Source: a virus. From it: DNA of 23,657 nucleotides. A program made the translations under genes and the position numbers. The notes beneath the pieces were generated by a model. The model did no database searches and was not told where the DNA came from. It saw only the letters and a program-made list of their open reading frames with translations. Numbering within the stretch: the first letter of the stretch is position 1; each line of letters starts with the position of its first letter. This document shows positions 4,208 to 20,178 of this stretch, piece after piece. Location: the IMG/VR virus record IMGVR_UViG_3300031857_001415, positions 1 through 23,657 of that record. The stretch is one strand, 5' to 3'.

Positions 4208-6646
4208 GTGGCTAATGAAAGAATTGTAAGTCCTGGAGTGTTTACCAATGAAATGGATCTATCGTTCCTCCCACAAGGAATCGGTAACATTGGTGCGGCT
4301 CTCGTTGGACCAACGCTTAAAGGACCGGCTTTTGTGCCTACATTGGTGAATAGTTTTAGTGATTTTATCACTCATTTCGGTAATACATATGAACAATCAT
4401 ACTTACCATACACAGCAAAAAACTATCTTAATAATGCAGGTAGTGCAACAATAGTTCGTGTTCTTGGATCCGGTGGTTACTCTCTTAAGCATCCGGTTGC
4501 AATAGTTGCTACTGGTTCTTGGGGTAAATCACTTATTTCGTTTTTACATCCAACATTTGTTGTAACAAATTCAGATTCAACATCTTTATTTGAATCAACA
4601 ACCGTATCTGCAAACAATAGTGGTAGCTTTGTTATCACTTTGTCAGGATCATTCACAACAGACCAATCTGCATTTACAAATGCTATCGATCAGAATGGAA
4701 CTGCATTTAGTTCATCAATAAATCCAGAATCTACTGCATATATTGGCGATTTGTATGGCTACAATCCTTATGGAACAAACGCCGTTTACAACTATGTAAA
4801 CTTTAAGAAACAGGCATCCGCTTCACTTGCTTTAGATGCTGCAACAAAAATTATGATTGAAACTGGCTCTGCTGGTTCTCCTTGGGATTTTACAACCGAT
4901 TATTTGGCTGCATCTACTCCTTGGATAACATCACAAAAAATTGGTGATAGAACAACAGATTTGTTTAAGTTCCATACTATTTCTCATGGTATTCATTCTA
5001 ACTATGAAGTAAAAGTTGGTATTGCAAACATTCGTCCTGCTGGAACAATCGCTGGTTCAGAATATGGTGATTTTGATGTTGTTGTTAGATTTGTTGATCA
5101 ATCTAAACTTCCACAAACACCATTCACATCCGAAGATGAAGATTTGCGTCCAAACGTAATTGAATCATTTAAGTGTAACCTTGATCCAAATTCACCAAAA
5201 TTTATTTCAAGAGTTATTGGTGATAGATTCATAACAATTACCGATGAAGGTAAAGTTGTTGTTAATGGTGACTATTCTAACAAATCAAAATATGTTCGAG
5301 TTGAAACAACAGAAGCCGTTACTAACGGTGGTGTATCTCCTAATCTCGTTCCTTTTGGATTCCGTGCTTTACATTCACCAATTCCAAAACAATTTACTCA
5401 ACCAGCTGCTGCTACATATGTTGCAGACCAAACAGCCGGTGGTGCATATAACAGACGAGTATATTGGGGATTCAGCTATGACTTTACAAATACTGATAAC
5501 TTTAATTACTTGCGTCCACTTCCTATAACAGATAATGTTACAACTGGAAGTAATGTAGATTTCTATTTGGGTGATTATCAACAAAATCCTGGTGCAAGTT
5601 TCCCATCAAGTGCTGTTGCTTACAGTTCATCCATTGATTTGACTACAAATACTGCACTTGATTCTCGTAAATTTATTGTGCCACTTCAAGGTGGATTTGA
5701 TGGTCATAAACCAAATCTTCAAAAGAAATTGGGAACATACATTGAAGCTGGAAATACACAAGGATTCGATATATCAAACTCTAATGCAGATGGATATACT
5801 TCTTACAAGAAGGCAGTTGATACCATTTCAAATGCAGATGAATTTGATATTAACATGATAGTAACACCCGGTGTTCTTCACTCATTACATTCTGCTATAA
5901 CAAACTATACAAAAGATATGTGTGAGGATCGTGGTGATGCTTTCTATGTAATGGATTCTGTTGGTATAAATGATAATATCTCAACTGCTGTTGCAACAAC
6001 AGAAGGATTTGACAGTAACTATGCGGCTACTTATTATCCTTGGGTTAAGATTCTTGATTTCGATAGAAACAAACCAATTTGGGTTCCCCCATCTGTTGTT
6101 CTTCCTGGCGTAATTGCATTCAATGACCGTGTTGCTGCAGAATGGTTTGCTCCTGCTGGTTTGAATCGTGGTGGTTTGACAGAGGTAGTTGAAGTTAAAT
6201 CTCGTTTGACTCATGCTGAACGTGATACACTTTATGAGGCACGAATCAATCCTATCGCAGTGTTCCCATCAACAGGCGTTTGTGTCTGGGGTCAAAAAAC
6301 ATTGCAAGGTCGTCCATCTGCTCTTGACCGTATCAATGTTCGCCGTCTCTTGATTGCTGCTAAGAAGTTTATTGCTTCTTCCACAAGATACCTTGTGTTT
6401 GAACAAAACACTTCACAGACACGCTCAAGATTCTTGAACATTGTAACACCATACTTGGAATCAATTCAACAACGTCAAGGTTTGTATGCTTTCCGTGTTA
6501 TCATGGATGAAAGTAATAACACACCTGATATTATTGACCGCAACATCTTATACGGCCAGTTGTTCTTACAACCAGCCAAAACAGCTGAATTTGTCATACT
6601 TGACTTTAACATTCAGTCTACTGGTGCTGCTTTCCCTGGTGCTTAA
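4208..6646 (+). CDS. Tail sheath protein, T4 gp18-like
   Basis: An 812-residue contractile sheath subunit. The N terminus has the sheath signature IVSPGVFTNEMD, then a segment about ALVGPTLKGPAFVPTLV, as in gp18. The C-terminal third carries the conserved core: RINPIAVFPSTGVCVWGQKT near residue 680, then RPSALDRINVRRL, and the last strands YGQLFLQPAKTAEFVILDFN, which form the handshake between neighbouring subunits in known sheaths. T4 gp18 is 659 residues; the extra 150 or so probably enlarge the surface-exposed middle domains. The start is a GTG with GGAG at 4197-4200, and an in-frame TAA immediately before it (4205-4207) rules out an earlier start. A strong terminator follows the stop. Confidence 0.95.
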   Translation: MANERIVSPGVFTNEMDLSFLPQGIGNIGAALVGPTLKGPAFVPTLVNSFSDFITHFGNTYEQSYLPYTAKNYLNNAGSATIVRVLGSGGYSLKHPVAIVATGSWGKSLISFLHPTFVVTNSDSTSLFESTTVSANNSGSFVITLSGSFTTDQSAFTNAIDQNGTAFSSSINPESTAYIGDLYGYNPYGTNAVYNYVNFKKQASASLALDAATKIMIETGSAGSPWDFTTDYLAASTPWITSQKIGDRTTDLFKFHTISHGIHSNYEVKVGIANIRPAGTIAGSEYGDFDVVVRFVDQSKLPQTPFTSEDEDLRPNVIESFKCNLDPNSPKFISRVIGDRFITITDEGKVVVNGDYSNKSKYVRVETTEAVTNGGVSPNLVPFGFRALHSPIPKQFTQPAAATYVADQTAGGAYNRRVYWGFSYDFTNTDNFNYLRPLPITDNVTTGSNVDFYLGDYQQNPGASFPSSAVAYSSSIDLTTNTALDSRKFIVPLQGGFDGHKPNLQKKLGTYIEAGNTQGFDISNSNADGYTSYKKAVDTISNADEFDINMIVTPGVLHSLHSAITNYTKDMCEDRGDAFYVMDSVGINDNISTAVATTEGFDSNYAATYYPWVKILDFDRNKPIWVPPSVVLPGVIAFNDRVAAEWFAPAGLNRGGLTEVVEVKSRLTHAERDTLYEARINPIAVFPSTGVCVWGQKTLQGRPSALDRINVRRLLIAAKKFIASSTRYLVFEQNTSQTRSRFLNIVTPYLESIQQRQGLYAFRVIMDESNNTPDIIDRNILYGQLFLQPAKTAEFVILDFNIQSTGAAFPGA

Positions 6647-6737: not shown

Positions 6738-7226
6738 ATGGCTGAATTACTCGATCCCAATGAAATTTTTTTCACACCGTTTGAGCCAAAATTACAGAAT
6801 CGCTTTATCATGTATATTGAAGGCGTTCCTGCATATTTGGTAAAAGGTGCTGGTAGACCAAACATCAGTTTCAATCCAATCACACTTGACCACATCAACG
6901 TCAAACGTAAAGTAAAGGGAAAGGGTGAATGGCAAGATATTACAATCAAATTGTATGATCCTATCGTGCCTTCCGCTGCTCAGGCAACAATGGAATGGGT
7001 GCGTCTTTCACACGAATCTGTAACAGGTCGTGACGGTTATTCTGACTTCTATAAGAAAGACATAACACTTCATGTTCTCGGTCCTGTTGGTGATAAAGTT
7101 GAAGAATGGACACTTAAAGGTGCTTTCATTACTGCAACAACATTCGGTGAAATGGATTGGGCAAACGATGCTTTTGTTGAGATTTCTCTCACACTTGCAT
7201 ATGATTATGCTATCCTCCAATACTAA
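6738..7226 (+). CDS. Tail tube protein, T4 gp19-like
   Basis: A 162-residue tube subunit, the same size class as T4 gp19 (163 residues). Stacked hexamers of this protein make the inner tail channel. Visible family features are the opening PFEPKLQNRFIMYIEGVPAY (residues 14-33), the segment about GAGRPNISFNPITLDHINVK (37-56), the strand pair QDITIKLYDPI, and the C-terminal strands WTLKGAFITATTFGEMDWAN and FVEISLTLAYDYAILQY. The ATG is supported by GGAG at 6728-6731. It is flanked by hairpins on both sides with its own octamer upstream, so it is probably transcribed as a one-gene unit, which suits a protein needed in high copy number. Confidence 0.95.
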   Translation: MAELLDPNEIFFTPFEPKLQNRFIMYIEGVPAYLVKGAGRPNISFNPITLDHINVKRKVKGKGEWQDITIKLYDPIVPSAAQATMEWVRLSHESVTGRDGYSDFYKKDITLHVLGPVGDKVEEWTLKGAFITATTFGEMDWANDAFVEISLTLAYDYAILQY

Positions 7227-8506: not shown

Positions 8507-11500
8507 GTGGCATCAAAAGAAGACGTAAAACTTGCCTCTGAACTAAAAGATTTAACTGAAACACGAATTGAATTAGAAAAACAAATCGTTGAACAGAAAA
8601 TCAAAATGGGATCGGAGGATAAAAAATCAATAGAAAATATCAAGAAACTTGTATCATTAGAAGCACTTCGTATGGATTCCATAGAGAAGGAAGAAGAAGT
8701 GCGCAAAAAAATTCAAGACATAGAAAAGGATTCTGAAAAACGATTAAAAGAATTTGAAAAATATGAAAAAGAATCTGTAAAAAATATAAAAGAACAAAAC
8801 AAGGGTGAAGACGAATTAAACAAAAAGGCAAAAAAGAAAAAAGAAAATGCAGAACAGGTAAAAAGATATTCAGAGGATCAAAGAAATATAACAGTAGAAC
8901 TAAACTCTCACATGGGTGTGTTGAATGATAAAGCAAAAGGTCATGCTGCTGCTTTATTAAAAACAGCAGGTGTAAATGATACAATAGCAGAATCATATAC
9001 AACAATATCAACACAAATTGCTAAGGGTTATGCCGGTAGTCAAAACTTTATGTCAGTCGTGGATCAGACGCGGGACATAACCAGTGATGTCTCTAAATTA
9101 TATGCCGAATCTATTGATCAAACTGGTCAAATAGAAAAAGGTTCTGCAAAAATAGTAGATACCGATAAAGCACGTCAAGACATTGCATTAAAACGTTTTC
9201 AAATTGAAAGTGGACAATTAGGATTAAGTGCATCAGAACAAGCAATGACAATGAAAATTCTTCGTCAAGATGAAGAAAGACTGAATGCAATAGACGAACA
9301 AAACAAATACATAGAGAAACAAAACTCAAAAATGGGTATGATAAATGATATAGGAAGTAAGTTGGGAACTTCTATGTCATCTTGGGTTACTAAACTTCCT
9401 GGTGGTGAACAAATTTCAAAAATTCTTGGAATTGATAAAACCGCCGATAAAATGAACAAATCATTCACATCTGCAATTCAAAACGGTCTTCAAGGTAATT
9501 TCAAAACTGCATTTGCAGATGGTATGAAAGGTCTTGGTAGTATGGTTGCAATGGCACCAAAACTTGTTGCTGGATTGGGATTGGGTGCATTAGCTGGTGG
9601 TTTTGGTTTGTTGGCAAAAGGAGCAAAGGGGATATTCAATGTATTGATGGAAGTTGATGGTGCTATTGCTCAAATGGGTAAAGACTTCTCAATGAGTAAA
9701 AAAGAAGCTGGTCAGTTGTATCAACAAACTGTTAAAATGTCTCAGGAATTGAAAATAACCGGAATCAATTCAAAAGAGATTGCAGAGGGTATTCAAGTTG
9801 CAAGTGATGCGTTTAACGGTATAGATGTTGCTTCACAAATAATGTCGGGCAATAAAGAATTAGAAGGTTTCGTTAAACAGGCAGCTGTTTTGACAAAACA
9901 ATTTGGGTTATCTGGTGCGGAAGTTGCTAGAATAAAAGATATAGCAACTATTACCGGAACATCAATGGATAAACTTGTAAAAGAATCCGTTGATATGGGT
10001 AAAGGGGTTATGAATGCTAAAGAGAGTATGAAAGTCCTTGCCGGTATTCCAAAAGAAGTTGCTGTTGGATTTAAGGGTGCATCAAAAGAACTTGTTGCTG
10101 CTGCTCAAAAGGCAAAATTATTAGGAACAGATCTTAAGAAGATAAAAGATATTGGTAGGGGAATGTTGGATTTGGAATCATCTCTGACTGCAGAATTTGA
10201 AGCACAGGCAATAACCGGTAAGAATATGAATCTTGATGCTGCAAGAAGATTTGCAATGGAGGGTAATATATTCGGATTACAGGAAGAATTGCTAAATAAA
10301 GCTGGATCACTTGAAGATTTCACCAATATGAATGTTATTCAACAAGAGGCATTTGCTAAGGCGATGGGTATGTCTGTTGAAGAAATGACAGATATGCTTA
10401 CTAATGCAGAAAAACTTTCAAAGGCAGGTATTGATTCAGATTATGCAGAAAAATTGAGTAATATGCAATCTGCCGCCGAACTTGAAAAAGAAATGGCAAA
10501 TGCAAAGAATCAAGAACAAAAAGATTACATTGCTCAACTTGCTGCAGAAAAACGTTCTGCTAGTTTGAAAGAATCTATGGCAGATGCTGTTGAAAAATTA
10601 AAACAAAAATTTGCTCCTGTAATAGATGCAATAGTTCAGATGGTTAGTGGTTTAGAACAAGGAAATGACGGTGTATCTGTATTTCAAAAGATGTTAGATG
10701 GTATAGATATGAATGCCATTGCGGCTGGTATAAAAGAAGCTTTACCAAAAGTAATGGAAGCTGTTCAAGGTTTGATTAAAAATCTTCCAAAGATTATAGA
10801 AATGGTAGGAGGGTTGATAAGTAAATTCAGCGGAATTGCCGGAGCTGCTGGTGGATTCCTTGATATATTGGGACCTAGCACCGCCGGTTTGGGTGTAATG
10901 GCATTAAAAGTTGCCGGTCCTGGTGGTATAGCCGCTGGTTTCAAAGTTGCAAGTAAAGGTGCAATGGGATTATTCGATATGATAAAAGGTCCACTTGGTG
11001 ATAGTGTGGGCAAACTTGCAGGAGGGGTATCCGGTAAATTAGGTGATGCTTTTGGAAAAGTTACAGAAAAGGCAGGTGCCCTTGGATCCAAAATGAAAGA
11101 TATGGCCGCAAGTAAAGCGGGTGATATGTCAGGCGCCGGTGGTGGTAAGAAGGCAAAAATGCCAAAGGCAAAAGCCGGAAAAGGTGGCGGTGGAATGATG
11201 GATGGTATAGCGGATTTTGTCAATAAAGTGGATATGAAAAAAATGTTAATGGGTGCTGCTGCATTACTTGTTCTCGCGGCTGCTTTATTTGTAACTGCTA
11301 AGGCATTACAAGAATTTGCTAAAGTTGAATGGAGTGCAATGGCAAAAGGAGCCGTTGCTCTTCTTGGTCTTGCTGGTATTGCCATGTTATTAGGAACTGC
11401 ATCCGTTCCTATGTTAATTGGAGCCGGTGCTATTTTAGTTCTCGGTGCTGCATTGATGGTTGCCGCTGTTGGTTTGAAAATAATGGGTGAAATTAAATGG

Positions 11501-12673
11501 GATAACTTCAAAGGAATTGCTGGTGCATTAGTTGAACTTGCTGGTGGATTTGTTGTATTAGGGGCTGCCGCTCCTTTCATAATAATCGGTTCTATGGCTA
11601 TGATTGCAATGGGTGCAGCTGCTGCTGTTTTTGGTGGTGGGTTATACCTTATTGCAAAATCACTTGCTGAATTTCAGAAGATTGGTGACTTCGGAAAGGT
11701 TGGGGACAACTTGGCTGCCGGTATGGAGGCATTAGGTTCCGTTTCAGAAAAGGTTGATATAGGAAAACTTGAAGATTCATTTGAGGAATTAAACGATGCA
11801 CTTGAAGAATTAGATTTTGAAAAACTAGCAGCTTTTGGTCAATTAGGAAACTCTGCTCTAAAAGGTGCCGGAGATAATCTCGTTGGTGGTATAAATTCTT
11901 TGATGGGTATAAATCAGGGAATAAATTGGAGTGGGCTTGAAGATACATTTGAAGGTTTGGAAGATTCTCTTGACGAATTAGATTTAGAAGGAATACAGGC
12001 ATTTGCTAAATTGGGTGAAGAAGGTATAAAAAAAGCCGGTGAAAATCTTATGGCTGGGTTAAATTCATTTCAAGGAATTGATCCAAAGGCGGCAGTTGCT
12101 GCTATCGCTCCACTGGAAGATGTTTTTAGTGCCCTCGAAGATGCATTTGATGAATTAGATTACGAAGAACTGGATGCATTTGGTAAGGTTGATTTTACTA
12201 AAATGGCCGCAAATACAACTGGTTTATCACAGTTTGCACATGCACTTGGTAATATCGGCAGTATGTCTGGAATTGATAAGTTGGAAGAACAATTTGAAAA
12301 ACTATCAGATGCAATAGACGGTTTAGACATTGATAAGTTAAACGAACTATCAAATATAAAGCCGGATGCAATGGGCAATTTAGGAAAATTACAGGCAGTA
12401 TTTCAACCGTCACAAAAAATAGAATCGCCTGCCGGTGGTGCAGCAGCCGGTGGTGCAGGTGGTGCCGCTGGTGCAGGTGGTGCAGCTGCTGGTGGTGCAG
12501 GTGGAAGTGGTGGTGTTGAAGCGAAATTAGATCAACTAATTGGATTATTCAGTTCTATTGCAAATCAACCTACTGTAATAAAATTTGGTGATAAATTTGT
12601 AGAAGAAATACGAAATACTATAAACATAAAGAAAACATATAACATTGAAGATAATTTCGGTAGAACGGCATAA
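8507..12673 (+). CDS. Tail tape-measure protein
   Basis: A 1388-residue protein that should run through the tail tube and set its length. At about 0.15 nm per residue this predicts a tail near 200 nm. In order: a charged coiled-coil N terminus (residues about 1-130), a long helical region, a hydrophobic Gly/Ala patch near 350-375 and a long helical middle. A set of very hydrophobic segments follows between about 912 and 1055 (such as AAALLVLAAALFVTAKAL). Then come four repeats (1088-1290), a Gly/Ala low-complexity linker (1309-1336) and a C-terminal FGDKFVEEIRNTINIKKTYN. Its place after the chaperone pair fits. The GTG start is the first possible after an in-frame TAG at 8498, with only a weak ribosome binding site. 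T4 gp29 is 590 residues, so this one is much longer. Confidence 0.88.
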   Translation: MASKEDVKLASELKDLTETRIELEKQIVEQKIKMGSEDKKSIENIKKLVSLEALRMDSIEKEEEVRKKIQDIEKDSEKRLKEFEKYEKESVKNIKEQNKGEDELNKKAKKKKENAEQVKRYSEDQRNITVELNSHMGVLNDKAKGHAAALLKTAGVNDTIAESYTTISTQIAKGYAGSQNFMSVVDQTRDITSDVSKLYAESIDQTGQIEKGSAKIVDTDKARQDIALKRFQIESGQLGLSASEQAMTMKILRQDEERLNAIDEQNKYIEKQNSKMGMINDIGSKLGTSMSSWVTKLPGGEQISKILGIDKTADKMNKSFTSAIQNGLQGNFKTAFADGMKGLGSMVAMAPKLVAGLGLGALAGGFGLLAKGAKGIFNVLMEVDGAIAQMGKDFSMSKKEAGQLYQQTVKMSQELKITGINSKEIAEGIQVASDAFNGIDVASQIMSGNKELEGFVKQAAVLTKQFGLSGAEVARIKDIATITGTSMDKLVKESVDMGKGVMNAKESMKVLAGIPKEVAVGFKGASKELVAAAQKAKLLGTDLKKIKDIGRGMLDLESSLTAEFEAQAITGKNMNLDAARRFAMEGNIFGLQEELLNKAGSLEDFTNMNVIQQEAFAKAMGMSVEEMTDMLTNAEKLSKAGIDSDYAEKLSNMQSAAELEKEMANAKNQEQKDYIAQLAAEKRSASLKESMADAVEKLKQKFAPVIDAIVQMVSGLEQGNDGVSVFQKMLDGIDMNAIAAGIKEALPKVMEAVQGLIKNLPKIIEMVGGLISKFSGIAGAAGGFLDILGPSTAGLGVMALKVAGPGGIAAGFKVASKGAMGLFDMIKGPLGDSVGKLAGGVSGKLGDAFGKVTEKAGALGSKMKDMAASKAGDMSGAGGGKKAKMPKAKAGKGGGGMMDGIADFVNKVDMKKMLMGAAALLVLAAALFVTAKALQEFAKVEWSAMAKGAVALLGLAGIAMLLGTASVPMLIGAGAILVLGAALMVAAVGLKIMGEIKWDNFKGIAGALVELAGGFVVLGAAAPFIIIGSMAMIAMGAAAAVFGGGLYLIAKSLAEFQKIGDFGKVGDNLAAGMEALGSVSEKVDIGKLEDSFEELNDALEELDFEKLAAFGQLGNSALKGAGDNLVGGINSLMGINQGINWSGLEDTFEGLEDSLDELDLEGIQAFAKLGEEGIKKAGENLMAGLNSFQGIDPKAAVAAIAPLEDVFSALEDAFDELDYEELDAFGKVDFTKMAANTTGLSQFAHALGNIGSMSGIDKLEEQFEKLSDAIDGLDIDKLNELSNIKPDAMGNLGKLQAVFQPSQKIESPAGGAAAGGAGGAAGAGGAAAGGAGGSGGVEAKLDQLIGLFSSIANQPTVIKFGDKFVEEIRNTINIKKTYNIEDNFGRTA
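11768..12370 (+). repeat. Four acidic repeats in the tape-measure protein
   Basis: Four imperfect units begin at residues 1088, 1144, 1203 and 1259 (spacing 56-59 residues). Each starts with an acidic helix of the type LEDSFEELNDALEELDFEKL, followed in the first three by AFGQLG-like or AFAKLG-like text. The last unit is the most diverged. Tape-measure proteins often carry periodic helical segments. Confidence 0.75.
12431..12516 (+). repeat. Gly/Ala low-complexity stretch in the tape-measure gene
   Basis: GGTGCA/GGTGCC/GCT-type codon repeats encode an almost pure Gly/Ala linker at residues about 1309-1336. It separates the four acidic repeats from the C-terminal segment. Such triplet runs tend to vary in length between relatives. 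Confidence 0.85.
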
Positions 12674-12723: not shown

Positions 12724-15700
12724 ATGTCATTGGTAGACTTAAAATCTGATTTATCAAAATATAGAAGTGAGGTTTCAAAGGAGGGCAAAAGCACTCCAGA
12801 TGCTTCATCTGCTACCAATGATAAAAACTTTGCAACACAACAACCAATTACAGATGGTTTATACAAAGATGTACCTACTATACAAAAACCAAAAGTTGTT
12901 AGTCTTACAAGTCAATTATCCAACACCAAACTTGATGAAATAAAACAACCAAAGAAATCGGATGTTAGTAAAAGATTAGGAACAACCGAACTTGATAACA
13001 TAAAAAAGCCGGTAAAAACATCATTAGAAAGTAAGTTAGATTCTACTAAACTTGATGATATAGTTATACCATCGGATAAAAGAATTGGTTTGGAAGATAG
13101 ATTGGCCTCAACTAAACTTGATGATATAGTTCAACTTCCAATAGAAAGTCTTTTGATAAACTCTGTATCAGAATTTTCTCCAACGGTTTCCGAAAATAGA
13201 ACGGCAATCGCTGGTGGAGTTGGTTTAGATCAAATTGAATCAAAGTTTTCAAATATAAAGCAAACAAGATTTTCTAGTAGATTAACCGAATCTGATACTG
13301 AAATATCAAGAACTACTCTAGGTGAAAACAATAACAATTCAAACGTTGATATAAATAGACAACCACTTTCTTTTGAAAGAGATGGAACTAGTCCTGATAT
13401 AAATGTTAATCAAAACGATGCAACAGATAATATAACAGATCCAAAAACTGTGATAAACAGAATACCACAGAGTTTTAACAGAGAGGATCAGGCGGTTGCT
13501 ATAAATAAAAGTATATTGTCTCCTATTGGCAATATAACAAACCCATTGATAACAATAACAAGACCACCACAGTTTTTCGATAGAACTGAAAATTCAATAG
13601 AAATATCAAAGAACGTAAATGATGCATCTGATAACATAACAATACCAGATATAGAACCTTTGTTACGCCCTTTATCTTTTGATAGACAAGAACAGGTTCC
13701 AAATATAATCACAGAAACTATACAAGAAGGTATAGTTGTAAATCCAAACATAAATGTTTTGAGAGTAGAACAGGGATCTATTCACACAGGCGATGCAAGT
13801 GAATTTAATATAGATGGTTCACCAATTCGTTTCGTTGGAACTTCCGAATTAGAAAGAATGATTGAAACTGACGATAAGGGTCCAATACGATATGAAGGTC
13901 AAACTATACACGATGTTGATAATAGTCAATTAAATCTTTTGGGTATAACACCAACATTTCCTGCAGGAAGACACGAGAATCCATCGGATTCACTATATTC
14001 AGTTTTAGGTTTACAAGAAGTTAATTTCTTCTCAAATCAATTTGCATTAGGATTTAACCAAAGACAACAATTAGGTGATACAAAGTATGTAGGATTTTCA
14101 CAATATGTTTGGACAGGTGGATCTGATAAGGGTCCATTCACGAATTATTTTTCTGATACAAATTCATTTGGATTCCAAATACGAGTTAATGCCGAAGAAA
14201 CTGCTTACCAACCAAATACATCACAATTTGATTTTGCAAAAATAACTGGTGTGAATTATTTTGATGGTAATAATAATAACACTATTGGTGGATTTAGTGT
14301 ATTCACACCACATCAAATAACAGAGTATAAAACAGAATCTTCATTTTTAGGATGGCAGGGTAATAGAGTTGGTGCTCCACAAGTAAATTTCTTTGATATA
14401 GAACTTGGTCATACAAAAAGAGGATTCAATAAATTTGCAGAACTAGGTGAGTCTGATTACATAGAAGGATCTTCTATATTTGATTATGACGGAAATAAAC
14501 AACAGGCACCATCTGTCAATTATTTCGATTTAACAAATGCATCTACAACAATGGGATTCCATAATTTTGCAGCATTTCAAGATTCAAAATACATTTTGGA
14601 TGCTTCAAATTATGCATGGAAAGGTGTTTCTCTAACTGATTCTCCAGAAACTAATTATTTTGATATATTCAAAAATGTTACAACTGCAGGATTCCATAGA
14701 TTTGCACAAAAATTAGAAACAAAATATATTAGAGATGCATCGGAATTTGTTTGGTCAGGAGCCAGAGGAGATGCTCCAACTATAAATTATTTTGATTTGG
14801 TAACAACTCTAAACTCAACAGATGGATTTCATTCATTTGCTGGGTTATATGATACAAAATATATTACAGATTCATCCAGATTTACATGGATTGGCACTCG
14901 TGACGATGCACCATTTGTAAATTACTTGGATATACCAACAAGAAATGTTACTTCTGGATTTGATATATTTGTTCCATTTTTAGAATCAAAGTATAAAAAT
15001 GATTCTTCTTATTATACATGGAATGTAAATAGACAAGATGCTCCCGTTGTAAATTATTTTGATTTAGAGAGTCAATCAACAACAACCGGTTTTCATAAAT
15101 TCTCCGGTATGTTTGATACTAAATACATAAAGGATTCATCTCAATTTGATTTTGATGGTAATAAACAAAATGCACCTGCTGTCAATTATTTTGATTTACT
15201 CGGTAGATTTACAACTGCAGGATTCCATACATTTCCTATCTTCAAAGAATCAAAGTACATCAAAGATTCATCCGAATTTGATTGGGATGGTGCAAGAGTA
15301 AATGCTCCTGCTATAAACTATTTCGATTTGCAGGGAACACACACTACTGCTGGATTCTATTCATTTGCACAAGAATATGATTCAAAGTATGTGAAAGAAT
15401 CTTCGAGGTTTGATTGGGACGGTAATAGGTCATCCGCACCTGCTGTTAATTATTTTGATTTGCCCGGTAAATTTACAACAGAAGGTTTTCATATACTTGC
15501 TCCATTTAAGCAAACTAGATATATTCACGAATCATCTGAATTTGATTGGGATGGTCTTCGTGCAAATTCACCAGAAGTTAATTATTTTGACTTTACAGGA
15601 AAGGTAACAACTGCTGGTTTTCATAGACTTGCTGAAACATATGATTCAAAGTATGTTGAAGAATCATCTATCTTCGATTGGGATGGTAGTCGTGATGAAT

Positions 15701-18700
15701 CTCCGCAAGTAAATTACTTTGATTTGCGTAGTAAATTTACAACAATAGGTTTCCATAGACTTGCCGAGTTATATGATAGTAAGTATGTTAAGGATTCATC
15801 GGAATTTACATTTGCTGGTAAGTTTCCAAAAGCAGGAACAGATTATTTTGATAAAGAAAAATTAAATCAAACCGGATTTACTCTGAATATACAACCAAAG
15901 GGATCAAGTAAACCTGCTGGAACAGAGTATTTCCATGAGAGTTCATTCTATACATTCAAAGGTGGAAGACCTGGAGAACCAGTCGAATCGGTAATTGATT
16001 TCTTTCAAAATACAAATCAGACCGGTTTCACGATGGACATTAAACGAAACGAAGGTTTGCCCGAAACAGAATATGCTACCGAGTCTTCTATATTTGTTTT
16101 TCAAGGTGGTAGACCTGGCTTACAAAGTTTCTTTCCTGACGATAACCAAACTGGTTTCACTTTGGATATTATGGCAAAGGGTAGTAGTAGACCTGGAACA
16201 GAGTATGATACCAATTCTTCTGATTATGGATTCAAAGCCGATAGAAGACCACCACTACTAAATTATTTTCCAGATGATAACCAAACTGGTTTCACTTTGG
16301 ATATTATGCCAAAGGGGGCTGGTAATCCTGAAACAGAATATGTAAATGAATCTTCAAGATTCGGTTTTATAGGTTTAAGACCAAACGGTGTTAATTATTT
16401 TCCTGATGATAACCAAACTGGTTTTACAATAGATATAATGCGTAAAGGTAGTGGTAGACCACAAACCGAATACACTGCAGAAACATCTCAATTTGATTGG
16501 AATGGATCAAGATTAAGTGCACCGAGTAATAATTATTTTGGTTTGTATAGAACGCCGATTGGAAAGGAATATATTGATGTTCAACAAAAAAATAACACTA
16601 CACAGGCAGGCAGAGGATTTCAAACATTCTATACAGATAAAACTGTAACTAATTATGCTCCAGGATATTCTATATTATCAACTGAAAGTGGAACTAATAA
16701 AGTTCTTTCTTTGGATAAGCCAGTAACAAATTTCTTTGGGTTTACACCATCACAGAGAGCTGGATTTTTACCACAAATGACATTGAACGATGGAACACTT
16801 TATCCGATAATAAATCCAGAACTTACTTACAATTTAGATCAAAGTGGAAGACTTGCTATTCAAACAAGAAGATCTTCTGCTGGAATCAATACAGTTAATG
16901 GCGAAGAATTTGCTCCATTATCTTTGGGAAAAAGACCTTGGGTTCAACAAGGAACTCTTGCTTCATTAGAAAATCAAGTTCCAAATATCATAACAAAAGC
17001 TGCTGCTGGTTCTTACATAAACAAATATGAAAGAACTATGAAAGATACACCAGATGGTAGTTACCTTGCATCTTATGGTATACGCCAAGGACAGATTGCA
17101 AAACAATACCAAGAATACAGAGGAACACCTTTACAATTTAATCCAGAATTAGATTCTACTCCATTTATACTAAGGGGTATTCAAATAAAAGGTAAAACTG
17201 TAAATGAAAGATGGGGACAAAATTCTGATGCAGGAAATGTTGTTTTTGGCAGAGGTGGTGGATATTCAGATCAATTTGCTGCAATTAACATTGCAGATAG
17301 AGAAAGAATAGAAAAATGGTTAGAAACACCAAAAGGAATAGCTTGGACATTGTTACAAGAAGAATTGTATAAAAATAATCCATTGGTTGATAGCATAACC
17401 GCAATAGAATCTGATTCAAATTCTGCTCAAATTTCTAAAACTCGAATATACAATAAGACATCCTTATTGAACGCAATAGAGGACAATTTGCTTAGAGGAA
17501 GAACTTTGAGAATACGCCACGGCGAAGATGGAGAAAATCCAGAAAATTCTGATAGGTACGAATCAGTAGTTTTAAGAATGAATCCAAGTAATGACGATAA
17601 ACAGAATGTTATGAATTTTCCCAGAACAGTTGCTGGAAACGCATCAACTTTATATTCGGATTCAATTCGATCAGCACAAAATACAAAAAACATATATTCT
17701 TTCTACAAATACAATAGATTGATAGCATTGATGTCTGAATTATTACCGTCATCATTTGCACCGTTAAATTCTAAAACTGCATCATCAATTCGTAATGCAG
17801 CCGGTAGCTCTACACTTAAAATATCGCGCTTATCCGGATTGGGTGGACCAAATTCCGGAACTGATCCATCTGGAGTTACTGAAATAAGAAGGGCATCACA
17901 TCCATTTATGAAGGTATACAATACATCTGGTGTTTTACCCGAAACATATCCATCAACTGCAAAAAGAGATACTTGGTTTGGACAAAAAACAAAAGTTGGT
18001 GCAGATGGACCAACCGAAGATGGAACGGATTACACATATTCCGGAAGAATGAAACAACAAAAATCTTTAGCAGACGGCCAAACATTTGATGGTTTGATAA
18101 CTGCACTTTCTTATTTATTGAGTGGATCAAAATTTGAAAATAATACACAAGAATATCCGAAAGAAGGCAACGGAAATCCTGATAACTCTGCATATATTCA
18201 ACCAAATGTTTACAAGATAATAAGTGCTAGGGATCCATTTAATCCAAAATATCCATCGTATGATGATAGATTGCGAGCAAATGCAGTATTTGATTCTGAT
18301 AACATACCAAATTCAACACCAAATGGAACAGAGCCAATATATCTAAAACCCCCATCTGGCGAAGATCAACAAACTGCACCTATTAAACAATATAGTGCCG
18401 TTTCTTACAATAAACTAAAAAAAATTCAACGCGGTGATGCTAATAGATTGAGAGATTACAATGACTTCCGTGCAGATATTGAAGGTGAAACATATAAAAA
18501 GTTTTCAACTGATCCCGCGATTGCTGACTATAAAAAGAATAATCTTGATAATAGATTCGGATTTGGTAAACAAGGAAAACCTGGAACAAAAAGAGACAAT
18601 CCTGCACGAAACAATATAGTGTATACCAAAGAAGGAGCAGTATTAAAACAAGGAACTGATTATGAATTTAGAGGGGATAGGATAAACATAATAGATTTTA

Positions 18701-19773
18701 AGACTTCAAATAAAGTAAACAATTTAAGTGAAGTTGAAGATTTTGCATATGAACGCGGTAAATACAAAAGACCTGGTTTAGAAGAAGGTGAAGACTTAAT
18801 AACATTTTATTTCAGTAGTGTTAATCTTATGCCAACTAAACAGTATCCAGTTGAAACAATAGTTTTTAGGGCATCGTTTGACAGTATAACCGATAATCAT
18901 AAACCAAGTTGGAGTCCTGTTCAATATATGGGTAGAGGGGATCCATCATATGTATTCGGATCATATGAGAGAGATACGAGTTTTGGATTCACAGTTCATA
19001 TAGGATCTCGTGATGAAATGGCAGCAACATGGAGAAAACTAAACGCACTTGCATCATGGACAACTCCAGATTATAGATCTGGCCGTATGCGTGCACCATT
19101 GTGCCGTCTGAACATAGGTCATTTGTTTAGAAAAACTCCTGGATTCATAAATTCACTAACATATACATTTGATAATGCAGGTGGAACTTGGGAAACTGCA
19201 AAATTAAAAGAAGATAGAAATTATGGTGATTCAGAATCAAAACCAGGCGTATTACAGTTGCCCAAAACAATTCAGGTTGCAGTTGGGTTTACAATTATCG
19301 GTAATTATCGTCCAGAAAGAAATGGTGTGATGTATTCACTATATGATGATGCAGGTGATGGATTGGCTCCTGCTATTGCATCAAATGGTGCTCTTGTAAA
19401 TTATTTCAGAATTGATGATGTGACATCTGCTAATAACAAAGATGCTGAAAAATACTTGTTAGAGGATCCACCAGGAAATCTTGAATCATATGATAAAACA
19501 AATACTGATGACGAAACAAAGGCATTAGGAGATGCTGCATTGACACAAATGTATGGAAAAGTGCCATTTACAGAAAAGAAAGATGCAGATGGAAATGTTA
19601 CTTATGAATCAACTGATCCAAAATTTGGATCAATTGATACAAAAGCAGAAGAAGAAAAAGCTGCAGCTGGAGCTGATAAAGCTGCTACCGATCTTCAAAA
19701 AGAGCAGGAAGAAAAAGCGGCAAGAGATAAAATTGCAGAATCTGGTGGTAATCCATCTCCCGGTCCACCATAA
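12724..19773 (+). CDS. Giant repeat-containing virion protein, probable baseplate component
   Basis: A 2349-residue protein, the largest gene in the window. In order: four short repeats (residues 61-139), four PLSFERD-type repeats (210-340), about 19 tandem units of about 44 residues (453-1275), then a non-repetitive region. This last includes IEKWLETPKGIAWTLLQEEL near 1523-1542, a pattern I associate with large phage baseplate-type proteins. A domain at about 2028-2152 has NHKPSWSPVQYMGRGDPSYV, then SFGFTVHIGS and SLTYTFDNAGGTWE; it resembles tail-tube-like or baseplate domains. The tail is charged and Ala-rich. There is no signal peptide or membrane segment. The ATG has AGGA at 12710-12713. 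Its place between tape measure and gp53-like gene argues for the baseplate; a fibre-like role is the main alternative. The name is inference. Confidence 0.72.
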   Translation: MSLVDLKSDLSKYRSEVSKEGKSTPDASSATNDKNFATQQPITDGLYKDVPTIQKPKVVSLTSQLSNTKLDEIKQPKKSDVSKRLGTTELDNIKKPVKTSLESKLDSTKLDDIVIPSDKRIGLEDRLASTKLDDIVQLPIESLLINSVSEFSPTVSENRTAIAGGVGLDQIESKFSNIKQTRFSSRLTESDTEISRTTLGENNNNSNVDINRQPLSFERDGTSPDINVNQNDATDNITDPKTVINRIPQSFNREDQAVAINKSILSPIGNITNPLITITRPPQFFDRTENSIEISKNVNDASDNITIPDIEPLLRPLSFDRQEQVPNIITETIQEGIVVNPNINVLRVEQGSIHTGDASEFNIDGSPIRFVGTSELERMIETDDKGPIRYEGQTIHDVDNSQLNLLGITPTFPAGRHENPSDSLYSVLGLQEVNFFSNQFALGFNQRQQLGDTKYVGFSQYVWTGGSDKGPFTNYFSDTNSFGFQIRVNAEETAYQPNTSQFDFAKITGVNYFDGNNNNTIGGFSVFTPHQITEYKTESSFLGWQGNRVGAPQVNFFDIELGHTKRGFNKFAELGESDYIEGSSIFDYDGNKQQAPSVNYFDLTNASTTMGFHNFAAFQDSKYILDASNYAWKGVSLTDSPETNYFDIFKNVTTAGFHRFAQKLETKYIRDASEFVWSGARGDAPTINYFDLVTTLNSTDGFHSFAGLYDTKYITDSSRFTWIGTRDDAPFVNYLDIPTRNVTSGFDIFVPFLESKYKNDSSYYTWNVNRQDAPVVNYFDLESQSTTTGFHKFSGMFDTKYIKDSSQFDFDGNKQNAPAVNYFDLLGRFTTAGFHTFPIFKESKYIKDSSEFDWDGARVNAPAINYFDLQGTHTTAGFYSFAQEYDSKYVKESSRFDWDGNRSSAPAVNYFDLPGKFTTEGFHILAPFKQTRYIHESSEFDWDGLRANSPEVNYFDFTGKVTTAGFHRLAETYDSKYVEESSIFDWDGSRDESPQVNYFDLRSKFTTIGFHRLAELYDSKYVKDSSEFTFAGKFPKAGTDYFDKEKLNQTGFTLNIQPKGSSKPAGTEYFHESSFYTFKGGRPGEPVESVIDFFQNTNQTGFTMDIKRNEGLPETEYATESSIFVFQGGRPGLQSFFPDDNQTGFTLDIMAKGSSRPGTEYDTNSSDYGFKADRRPPLLNYFPDDNQTGFTLDIMPKGAGNPETEYVNESSRFGFIGLRPNGVNYFPDDNQTGFTIDIMRKGSGRPQTEYTAETSQFDWNGSRLSAPSNNYFGLYRTPIGKEYIDVQQKNNTTQAGRGFQTFYTDKTVTNYAPGYSILSTESGTNKVLSLDKPVTNFFGFTPSQRAGFLPQMTLNDGTLYPIINPELTYNLDQSGRLAIQTRRSSAGINTVNGEEFAPLSLGKRPWVQQGTLASLENQVPNIITKAAAGSYINKYERTMKDTPDGSYLASYGIRQGQIAKQYQEYRGTPLQFNPELDSTPFILRGIQIKGKTVNERWGQNSDAGNVVFGRGGGYSDQFAAINIADRERIEKWLETPKGIAWTLLQEELYKNNPLVDSITAIESDSNSAQISKTRIYNKTSLLNAIEDNLLRGRTLRIRHGEDGENPENSDRYESVVLRMNPSNDDKQNVMNFPRTVAGNASTLYSDSIRSAQNTKNIYSFYKYNRLIALMSELLPSSFAPLNSKTASSIRNAAGSSTLKISRLSGLGGPNSGTDPSGVTEIRRASHPFMKVYNTSGVLPETYPSTAKRDTWFGQKTKVGADGPTEDGTDYTYSGRMKQQKSLADGQTFDGLITALSYLLSGSKFENNTQEYPKEGNGNPDNSAYIQPNVYKIISARDPFNPKYPSYDDRLRANAVFDSDNIPNSTPNGTEPIYLKPPSGEDQQTAPIKQYSAVSYNKLKKIQRGDANRLRDYNDFRADIEGETYKKFSTDPAIADYKKNNLDNRFGFGKQGKPGTKRDNPARNNIVYTKEGAVLKQGTDYEFRGDRINIIDFKTSNKVNNLSEVEDFAYERGKYKRPGLEEGEDLITFYFSSVNLMPTKQYPVETIVFRASFDSITDNHKPSWSPVQYMGRGDPSYVFGSYERDTSFGFTVHIGSRDEMAATWRKLNALASWTTPDYRSGRMRAPLCRLNIGHLFRKTPGFINSLTYTFDNAGGTWETAKLKEDRNYGDSESKPGVLQLPKTIQVAVGFTIIGNYRPERNGVMYSLYDDAGDGLAPAIASNGALVNYFRIDDVTSANNKDAEKYLLEDPPGNLESYDKTNTDDETKALGDAALTQMYGKVPFTEKKDADGNVTYESTDPKFGSIDTKAEEEKAAAGADKAATDLQKEQEEKAARDKIAESGGNPSPGPP
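12904..13137 (+). repeat. Four short N-terminal repeats in the giant protein
   Basis: Four units of about 20-25 residues. Each has the form of L-x-x-(R/K/Q)-L followed by STKLDDI or a variant (NTKLDEI, TTELDNI, STKLDDI twice) and a Pro. They lie at residues about 61-139, in a region likely to be disordered or to act as repeated short binding motifs. Confidence 0.8.
13351..13740 (+). repeat. Four PLSFERD-type repeats in the giant protein
   Basis: A second repeat family at residues about 210-340. The units contain INRQPLSFERD, INRIPQSFNRE, ITRPPQFFDRT and LLRPLSFDRQ, each followed within about 10 residues by an Ile/Asn-rich strand and NIT-like text. Unit length is roughly 35-40 residues. It differs from both flanking repeat families. 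Confidence 0.75.
14080..16545 (+). repeat. About 19 tandem 44-residue repeats in the giant protein
   Basis: Units start at a Ser/Thr-x-Tyr and read like SKYIKDSSEFDWDG, then a short R-containing loop with AP, then NYFDL, then TTAGFH plus FA. I count 19 starts between residues 453 and 1248. Units 1-3 are irregular and units 4-13 are the classical form. Units 14-18 change the second half to a DDNQTGFTLDI type, and unit 19 returns to FDWNG but breaks off into unique sequence. The strict aromatic and Gly positions suggest a repeated beta structure. Confidence 0.93.
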
Positions 19774-19802: not shown

Positions 19803-19810
19803 ATATTTAT
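19803..19810 (+). promoter_or_regulatory. Candidate late promoter octamer ATATTTAT
   Basis: Seventh copy of the intergenic octamer, 32 nt before the ATG of the gp53-like gene. It directly follows an AT-rich inverted repeat (19776-19802). It would drive the gp53-like, hub-like and 313-residue genes, which have no large gaps between them. Confidence 0.5.
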
Positions 19811-19842
19811 TGATATACAAATTAGTTTTAATAGGAAATTAT

Positions 19843-20178
19843 ATGCCAAATAGATATGACCAATCCAACATAATAACTGGTGTAAAAAAATACAATTCAG
19901 ATGGAACAGAAAGAAAAGTTTCGAGACTTTCATCTGTTTTTTATCCGGATTTTTCTCAAAACCAAGACGTTTACATCGTTTCAAAAATGGGTGATAGACT
20001 GGATAATCTGGCATACGATTATTATGGGGATGTTTCATATTGGTATGTTATTGGTATTGTAAACAATCTTGGCAGAGGAACACTTGCCGTTAAACCTGGA
20101 ATAGTATTGAGAATACCTTACTATGATGATTTAACCGGTATTAGTGCATTGTTTCAACAATATAACTTTATGAGGTAA
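19843..20178 (+). CDS. Baseplate wedge protein, gp53/LysM-like
   Basis: A 111-residue protein. Residues about 42-92 have the LysM-like pattern of small baseplate proteins such as T4 gp53: DVYIVSKMGDRLDNLAYDYY, then GDVSYWYVIGIVNNL, then LAVKPGIVLRIP. In T4, gp53 joins neighbouring wedges around the hub. T4 gp53 is 196 residues, so this is a minimal version. The ATG at 19843 is chosen because TAGGA at 19832-19836 is correctly spaced. A TTG at 19810 would add 11 hydrophobic residues, overlap the octamer and lack a binding site. The stop is 2 nt before the hub-like gene, whose ribosome binding site lies within the end of this gene. Confidence 0.82.
   Translation: MPNRYDQSNIITGVKKYNSDGTERKVSRLSSVFYPDFSQNQDVYIVSKMGDRLDNLAYDYYGDVSYWYVIGIVNNLGRGTLAVKPGIVLRIPYYDDLTGISALFQQYNFMR

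Follow-up and report, generated by a model that had tools for sequence, protein, structure and literature searches.

A giant predicted tail-tube initiator of a freshwater Far-T4-like myovirus carries repeat units whose number tracks tape measure protein length

The window, by which we mean the whole stretch of 23,657 nucleotides analysed here, is a 23.7-kb record of a freshwater virus of bacteria and contains a myovirus tail module with all features on the + strand. The genes run in the order PhoH, adaptor, three small genes, sheath, tube, baseplate-hub-type protein, tape measure protein (TMP), a giant gene referred to here as X, a gp53-like wedge, a 697-aa protein and more. Matches to PHROG families identified the tail sheath protein (4208..6646, 812 aa; E 8e-71), the tail tube protein (6738..7226; E 8e-28), the TMP (8507..12673, 1388 aa; E 2e-8) and, adjoining X, a small gp53-like (LysM-type) baseplate wedge protein (19810..20178; wedge subunit, E 7e-11). 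The PhoH-like gene (297-1046) lies within the structural module, and PhoH beside structural genes is a reported trait of freshwater Far-T4 phages (PMC4360716). The TMP of the window contains a repeat of ~56 residues (best autocorrelation at lag 56), with hydrophobic segments and Gly/Ala-rich linkers near its C-terminus. In the ORF list the wedge gene has a TTG start and 122 aa, against an ATG start and a length of 111 aa in most relatives; its annotated start may therefore be too early.

Gene X (12724..19773) starts with ATG and is one open, intact gene of 2349 codons. An earlier note on this DNA had placed the giant protein in the baseplate region, which proved right. The gene sits between the TMP gene and the LysM wedge gene, where a gp48/gp54-type tube initiator is expected. 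In T4, this place downstream of the tape measure gene (29) is taken by genes 48 and 54. The order TMP, X, LysM wedge and large ORF is common to the window, Mel-JY01 and Flavobacterium phage immuto. The note's remark on gene size also stands, the giant gene measuring 7050 bp and the six genes from adaptor (1047) to tube (7226) 6180 bp. In agreement with the note, we know of no such T4 baseplate protein, nor of any T4 protein with an arm like that of X.

The protein begins with a segment (residues 1-56, MSLVDLKSDLSKYRS...; 12724..12891) that is conserved among arm-bearing relatives and shows weaker likeness in sister lineages. This is followed by array A, with four units of 20 aa and a TKLDDI motif (residues ~57-138, 12892..13137; lag-20 z 4.7), array B, with four units of 34 aa, equal to eight half-units of ~17 aa (residues 200-336, 13321..13731; lag-34 z 8.3), and array C, with 19 units of ~44 aa (residues ~452-1288, 14077..16587), detected by self-comparison, a half-unit profile and shuffles. 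In a BLOSUM62 self-comparison of residues 441-1180, peaks were seen at lag 44 (mean 1.15) and lag 88 (0.65), the best other lag scoring -0.39, and for residues 452-1288 the lag-44 score was 26 sd over the mean of 500 shuffles. The description of a 2349-residue protein with about 19 tandem 44-residue units was thus confirmed by the intact reading frame and by the half-unit profile, which counted 19, and the motifs SSxFDWDG, NYFDL and TTxGFH follow in the order originally described; arrays A and B, which stand upstream of array C, and the conserved C-terminal domain had been missed. The 34-aa unit of array B consists of two unlike halves, and a lag/shuffle test on array B of the window protein itself gave no lag-17 signal. 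Between array C and the C-terminal core lies a region that is non-repetitive by sequence comparison (residues 1289-1929, 16588..18510), and an ILRGIQ...PKGxxW block within it is present in short-armed relatives too.

One search for relatives covered the best 80 of 560, and the window copy is L008 among the compared loci. Array B has seven rather than four units in L152, and in L133, L134, L137 and L138 tandem 16-residue units enlarge the B region; 16 aa was the shortest unit length found in X and the relatives examined. In one sublineage (L027, L030, L097, L160 and L168), later C units are interrupted between YFD and TTAGFH by inserts ~10-150 residues long, and several inserts have a common NRTTSE motif. 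In two close relatives (L005:10001-17491, on the same contig as L015, and L014:3899-11356), X ends in an intramolecular chaperone domain of the Peptidase_S74 family (PF13884; for L005, E 2.2e-14), which is absent from X of the other relatives and is otherwise found on trimeric fibres. The Microcystis phage Mel-JY01 (PP395634), on which a literature search found no papers, encodes a protein annotated 'hypothetical protein' (WWT39329) that is homologous to X over 93% length at 35% identity, in the same gene order, with 21 class C units and no recognisable A units or B anchor. Its 15 in-register C units (L009:15989-22756) are on average 67% identical, with 98% for the best pair, and this likeness suggests recent expansion or repeat homogenisation. 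An X relative in a 484-kb uncultured phage (L011:5807-10543) has a very acidic arm (VPEEDEVFDHEEENES-like) of 48-50 units of 16-17 aa, unrelated-looking and unlike any window unit. A search for relatives of L011 found none, a search for relatives of L206 returned only L206 itself, and a scan of bacterial and archaeal genomes found none.

The conserved C-terminal domain (residues ~2020-2200, 18781..19323) was delimited by relatives, predicted structure and PDB matches, and is the part common with the distant relatives Flavobacterium phage immuto, RM378 and LR756508. An AlphaFold model of residues 1930-2262, built from a 72-row alignment, had a mean pLDDT of 71.6, with a core of about 80-90. The best PDB matches of the model were baseplate tube proteins of the tube-type beta-barrel fold (144-148 residues, rmsd 3.2-3.9), namely those of P1 (9ay5_G, Z 10.6), PVC (6j0n_b, E 1.2e-6, Z 10.2) and T4 (5iv5_BE, Z 9.9) and the baseplate initiators of cyanophage A-1(L) (8kea, Z 9.5), with the AFP baseplate tube protein also among the matches; viral structure models that matched were annotated gp48 or tail tube cap. 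Searches of sequence families gave no Pfam match and a weak one to phrog_33716, of unknown function (E 0.04, residues 2120-2182). Residues 2028-2152, which the earlier note had marked for folding, fall inside this domain and have the predicted tube-initiator fold. As modelled, the C-terminal ~180 residues of X are a tail-tube-initiator domain, and the predicted fold together with the gene position argues that X is a tube initiator with a huge N-terminal arm, and not a skirt or fibre.

X would thus resemble T4 gp48/gp54, A-1(L) gp18 and the PVC/AFP tube proteins in its predicted C-terminal tube-type beta fold, and tube initiators in its position after the tape measure gene and beside the LysM wedge gene. 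Known initiators have about 220-370 residues (PDB target lengths; T4 masses, PMC3004832), to which X adds about 2000, including the three arrays. Immuto gp035 (716 aa) and a protein of Rhodothermus phage RM378 (458 aa) have the C-terminal domain and lack the 44-residue arm; RM378, with this short relative of X, is the Far-T4 reference. In phage immuto, a large baseplate protein after the LysM gene contains a VanY-type carboxypeptidase domain (L010:8910-11726).

Copy number was compared among relatives, as the earlier note had proposed, and was found to track TMP length. For 42 distinct relatives, TMP length equalled 732 + 21.2 (SE 0.6) x unit sum (r 0.984), and with separate classes TMP length was 709 + 19.5 (SE 2.0) A + 22.3 (1.5) B + 22.3 (1.3) C (R2 0.968, n=42). 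Units of 20, ~17 and 44 residues therefore have nearly equal weights, and the best weights on a coarse grid were 1:1:1. Array B was counted as half-units in all phages (region length divided by 17), which is a choice, as the B weight per 34 aa would be twice the others. Correlation with TMP length was lower for the number of residues in the arrays (r 0.906) and for the whole length of X (r 0.63, n=42 for both), as well as for C units alone (raw r 0.87-0.89). L027, L160 and L168 are still fitted by count, although their units hold inserts that reach ~100 aa. The 42 phages exclude the near-duplicates L034, L135 and L188 as well as L009, where no B anchor was found, and nine partial loci were left unused. 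Anchors were set by hand from sequence in L037, L029, L140, L160, L174, L178 and L181, and for L027, whose units are split by inserts, 20 C units were counted by eye instead of 18.

This rule replaced a simpler one. Among the first 30 relatives, TMP length correlated with C units (r 0.89, slope 27.1, SE 2.6) and with A + C (r 0.969). When the A + C rule was frozen and applied to 16 later phages, which included near-copies (L135 of L036, L188 of L027, and L140 of the earlier partial locus L042), r was 0.80 and RMSE 81, and 5 of the 16 (L133, L134, L137, L138 and L152, all with extra B-region units) were under-predicted by 99-158 aa. The A + C rule was dropped after these misses in favour of A + B + C, and the half-unit count for B was chosen at this stage. 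The A + B + C sum fitted on 28 phages predicted 14 later ones with r 0.991 and an RMSE of 13 aa against an sd of 96, in a test that is not fully blind since B was added after the misses were known.

Phylogenetically independent contrasts, on a tree built from 683 alignment columns of the last ~950 residues of X, gave a slope of 20.4 (1.2) and r 0.935 over 41 contrasts, with class slopes of 17.4 (2.4) for A, 22.8 (1.8) for B and 21.6 (1.7) for C. Removal of the four largest contrasts left r at 0.805. When count and array residues were placed in one contrast model, count retained its weight (21.5, SE 2.2) and residues had none (-0.04, SE 0.06). TMP length varies in many blocks, the single block with the best fit reaching r 0.79. 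That count outlasts residues, and that no lone TMP block accounts for the fit, indicate that total TMP length matches unit number and not unit size. No relation to TMP length was observed for the post-array length of X (contrasts r 0.20) or for the length of the downstream 600-850 aa ORF (n=27, r -0.27).

The count law holds within the clade with 44-residue units. In 28 distinct unit-less close relatives, the TMP is 550-677 aa long. These lengths are close to the intercept, as would be the case if no units were needed for a short base tail. In short-armed sister lineages, arm length did not correlate significantly with TMP length (n=10, r -0.52, p 0.12; the one locus of 11 in which the arm marker was not found, L221, was left out). 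L086 has no units and a TMP of 1009 aa, L083 has some units and a TMP of 828, and L098 and L099 have TMPs of 1186 and 1166 but X proteins of only 479 and 446 aa; L011, with its 48-50 units and a TMP of 1602, lies about 190 aa under the line. A universal law for all initiators was rejected, since the ten sister phages, L086, L098/L099 and L011 do not fit it.

The repeat units themselves were modelled as five consecutive C units (87-row alignment), giving a pLDDT of 43.6, a pTM of 0.17 and neither strand nor helix. Since the alignment includes register-shifted rows of the same repeats and AlphaFold is weak on repeats, this model is evidence against a rigid rod and not proof of disorder. The long beta-structured rods or skirts that had been suggested are not supported by it, and we rejected a beta-rod or skirt on this ground. 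That the units lie around the baseplate, as also suggested, does not agree with a unit number that tracks TMP length in relatives, which argues that the arm points along the tail; the further suggestion of many copies of a binding surface agrees with a unit that fits a repeated binding motif. Membership of a fibre family was disfavoured, neither Pfam nor PDB sequence searches having given a match to the repeats and the five-unit model being too poor for a fold search. Tape measure proteins (T4 gp29, TP901-1 TMP) scale in size with tail length, and X may do likewise, its unit count following TMP length. Unlike these long helical proteins that fill the tube, X stands beside a separate TMP gene, its units are predicted (at low confidence) to form neither helix nor strand, and it counts by unit, not by residue.

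We then compared units with tail rings. The rise of a T4 ring is about 40.6 A. For A-1(L), the ring matching the X domain is described as a hexameric tube initiator, on which 24 rings are stacked with a 36.2 A rise and in six helical starts (PMC10966104). In TP901-1, the loss of 347 TMP residues is reported to bring tail length down from 118 nm to 65 nm, or 1.53 A per residue, with about 127 TMP residues left at zero tail (PMC5099701), and the account of phiCbK agrees with 1.5 A per TMP residue (PMC3556154). At the TP901-1 rate one unit corresponds to ~32 A of tail, and B and C with their errors reach 30-38 A. If each TMP residue counts for 1.5 A, rings rise by 36.2 A as in A-1(L), and 127 aa are discounted as in TP901-1, rings minus units came to 21.6 (sd 0.81, n=42). 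This difference falls as N grows (r -0.60 for a rise of 36.2 A, and more strongly for 40.6 A), and the slope of 21.2 (SE 0.6) is under the 24-27 residues per ring, 10-20% below one ring. The short slope and the drift indicate that one unit per ring holds only nearly.

Our preferred reading, held with modest confidence, is that X is a tube initiator with six arms that extend along the tail at about one unit to one ring, as a length-matched brace or second ruler. Beyond what is established (the gene, its three arrays, the predicted initiator fold and the count-length relation), we infer the six copies, the docking partner, the one unit per ring and the function of the arm. In a Far-T4-like myovirus, X would initiate the tail tube, with its C-terminal domain forming a hexameric first ring on top of the baseplate hub. 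The N-terminal arm would be a mostly unfolded strand of short units (16-18, 20 or 44 residues), each a binding motif plus spacer, and six initiator subunits would supply six arms, one for each start of the six-start tube or sheath helix. Each arm unit could dock on a single ring, the tube or sheath offering an identical lattice, so that about one unit is added per ring added, unit count and TMP length co-evolve, and about 20 rings remain without a matching tandem unit. A fully extended 16-residue unit spans ~53-55 A, enough for the next ring; with this reach, units of 16 to 44 residues, even with ~100-aa inserts, would count alike. Near-identical units, such as those of Mel-JY01 (67% average), would suit a lattice of identical partners. 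The arm might lie in the lumen, between tube and sheath, or outside, and might act as a brace, an assembly check or a ruler for a long tail, whose length would be ~190 nm as judged from the TMP. More tentatively, it could be a second tail-length component, a strand on the initiator, anchored at the baseplate, that counts rings by interchangeable 16-44-residue units, so that two matched rulers, the TMP in the lumen and the arm on the tube or sheath, would set or check tail length.

The relation could also arise if the arm binds the TMP, as a built-in chaperone strand that coats it before tube growth with one unit per ~21 TMP residues. Chaperones that bind along the TMP exist, the X gene adjoins the TMP gene, and a slope expressed in TMP residues need not equal a ring. 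A complementary periodicity has been described in a chaperone (PMC5099701). We consider this unlikely, as the TMP has no clear ~21-residue period, its variable blocks differ among relatives while the units are homogeneous, which better suits an identical lattice, and long inserts within units would need room in the lumen. That the arm decorates the surface or resembles a fibre, with its anchor at the baseplate and folding back along the tail as A-1(L) fibres do, appears quite improbable. The variable inserts of one sublineage resemble exposed loops and the Peptidase_S74 ends of L005 (= L015) and L014 are typical of fibres, but no fibre fold or Pfam family was found, the units do not fold alone, and a free fibre needs no equal weight for 17-, 20- and 44-residue units.

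A purely historical origin, in which adjacent genes are inherited as cassettes and both lengths drift without physical matching, would be consistent with lengths common to related phages and with the lack of a relation in sister lineages. The contrasts (r 0.935, still 0.805 after removal of the four largest), the absence of any relation for the neighbouring post-array region and downstream ORF, and the position on one line of lineages that expand different unit classes make it very improbable.

The tube initiator is a known component; an arm whose unit number tracks the length of the tail ruler did not come up among the open-licence PMC papers listed for a second ruler, or for repeats tied to tail length. 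The tape measure protein is usually regarded as the sole determinant of tail length. In the present phages, TMP length spans a range of ~370 residues and is predicted to within ~15 by the unit number of a second protein, irrespective of unit length. If the arm is ring-matched, it would be a new structural element of contractile tails, would provide a digital, countable readout of ring number in sequence, and the relatives would form a natural mutant set for the fixing of tail length. A large family annotated as hypothetical in freshwater phages also gains a likely function, that of tube initiator.
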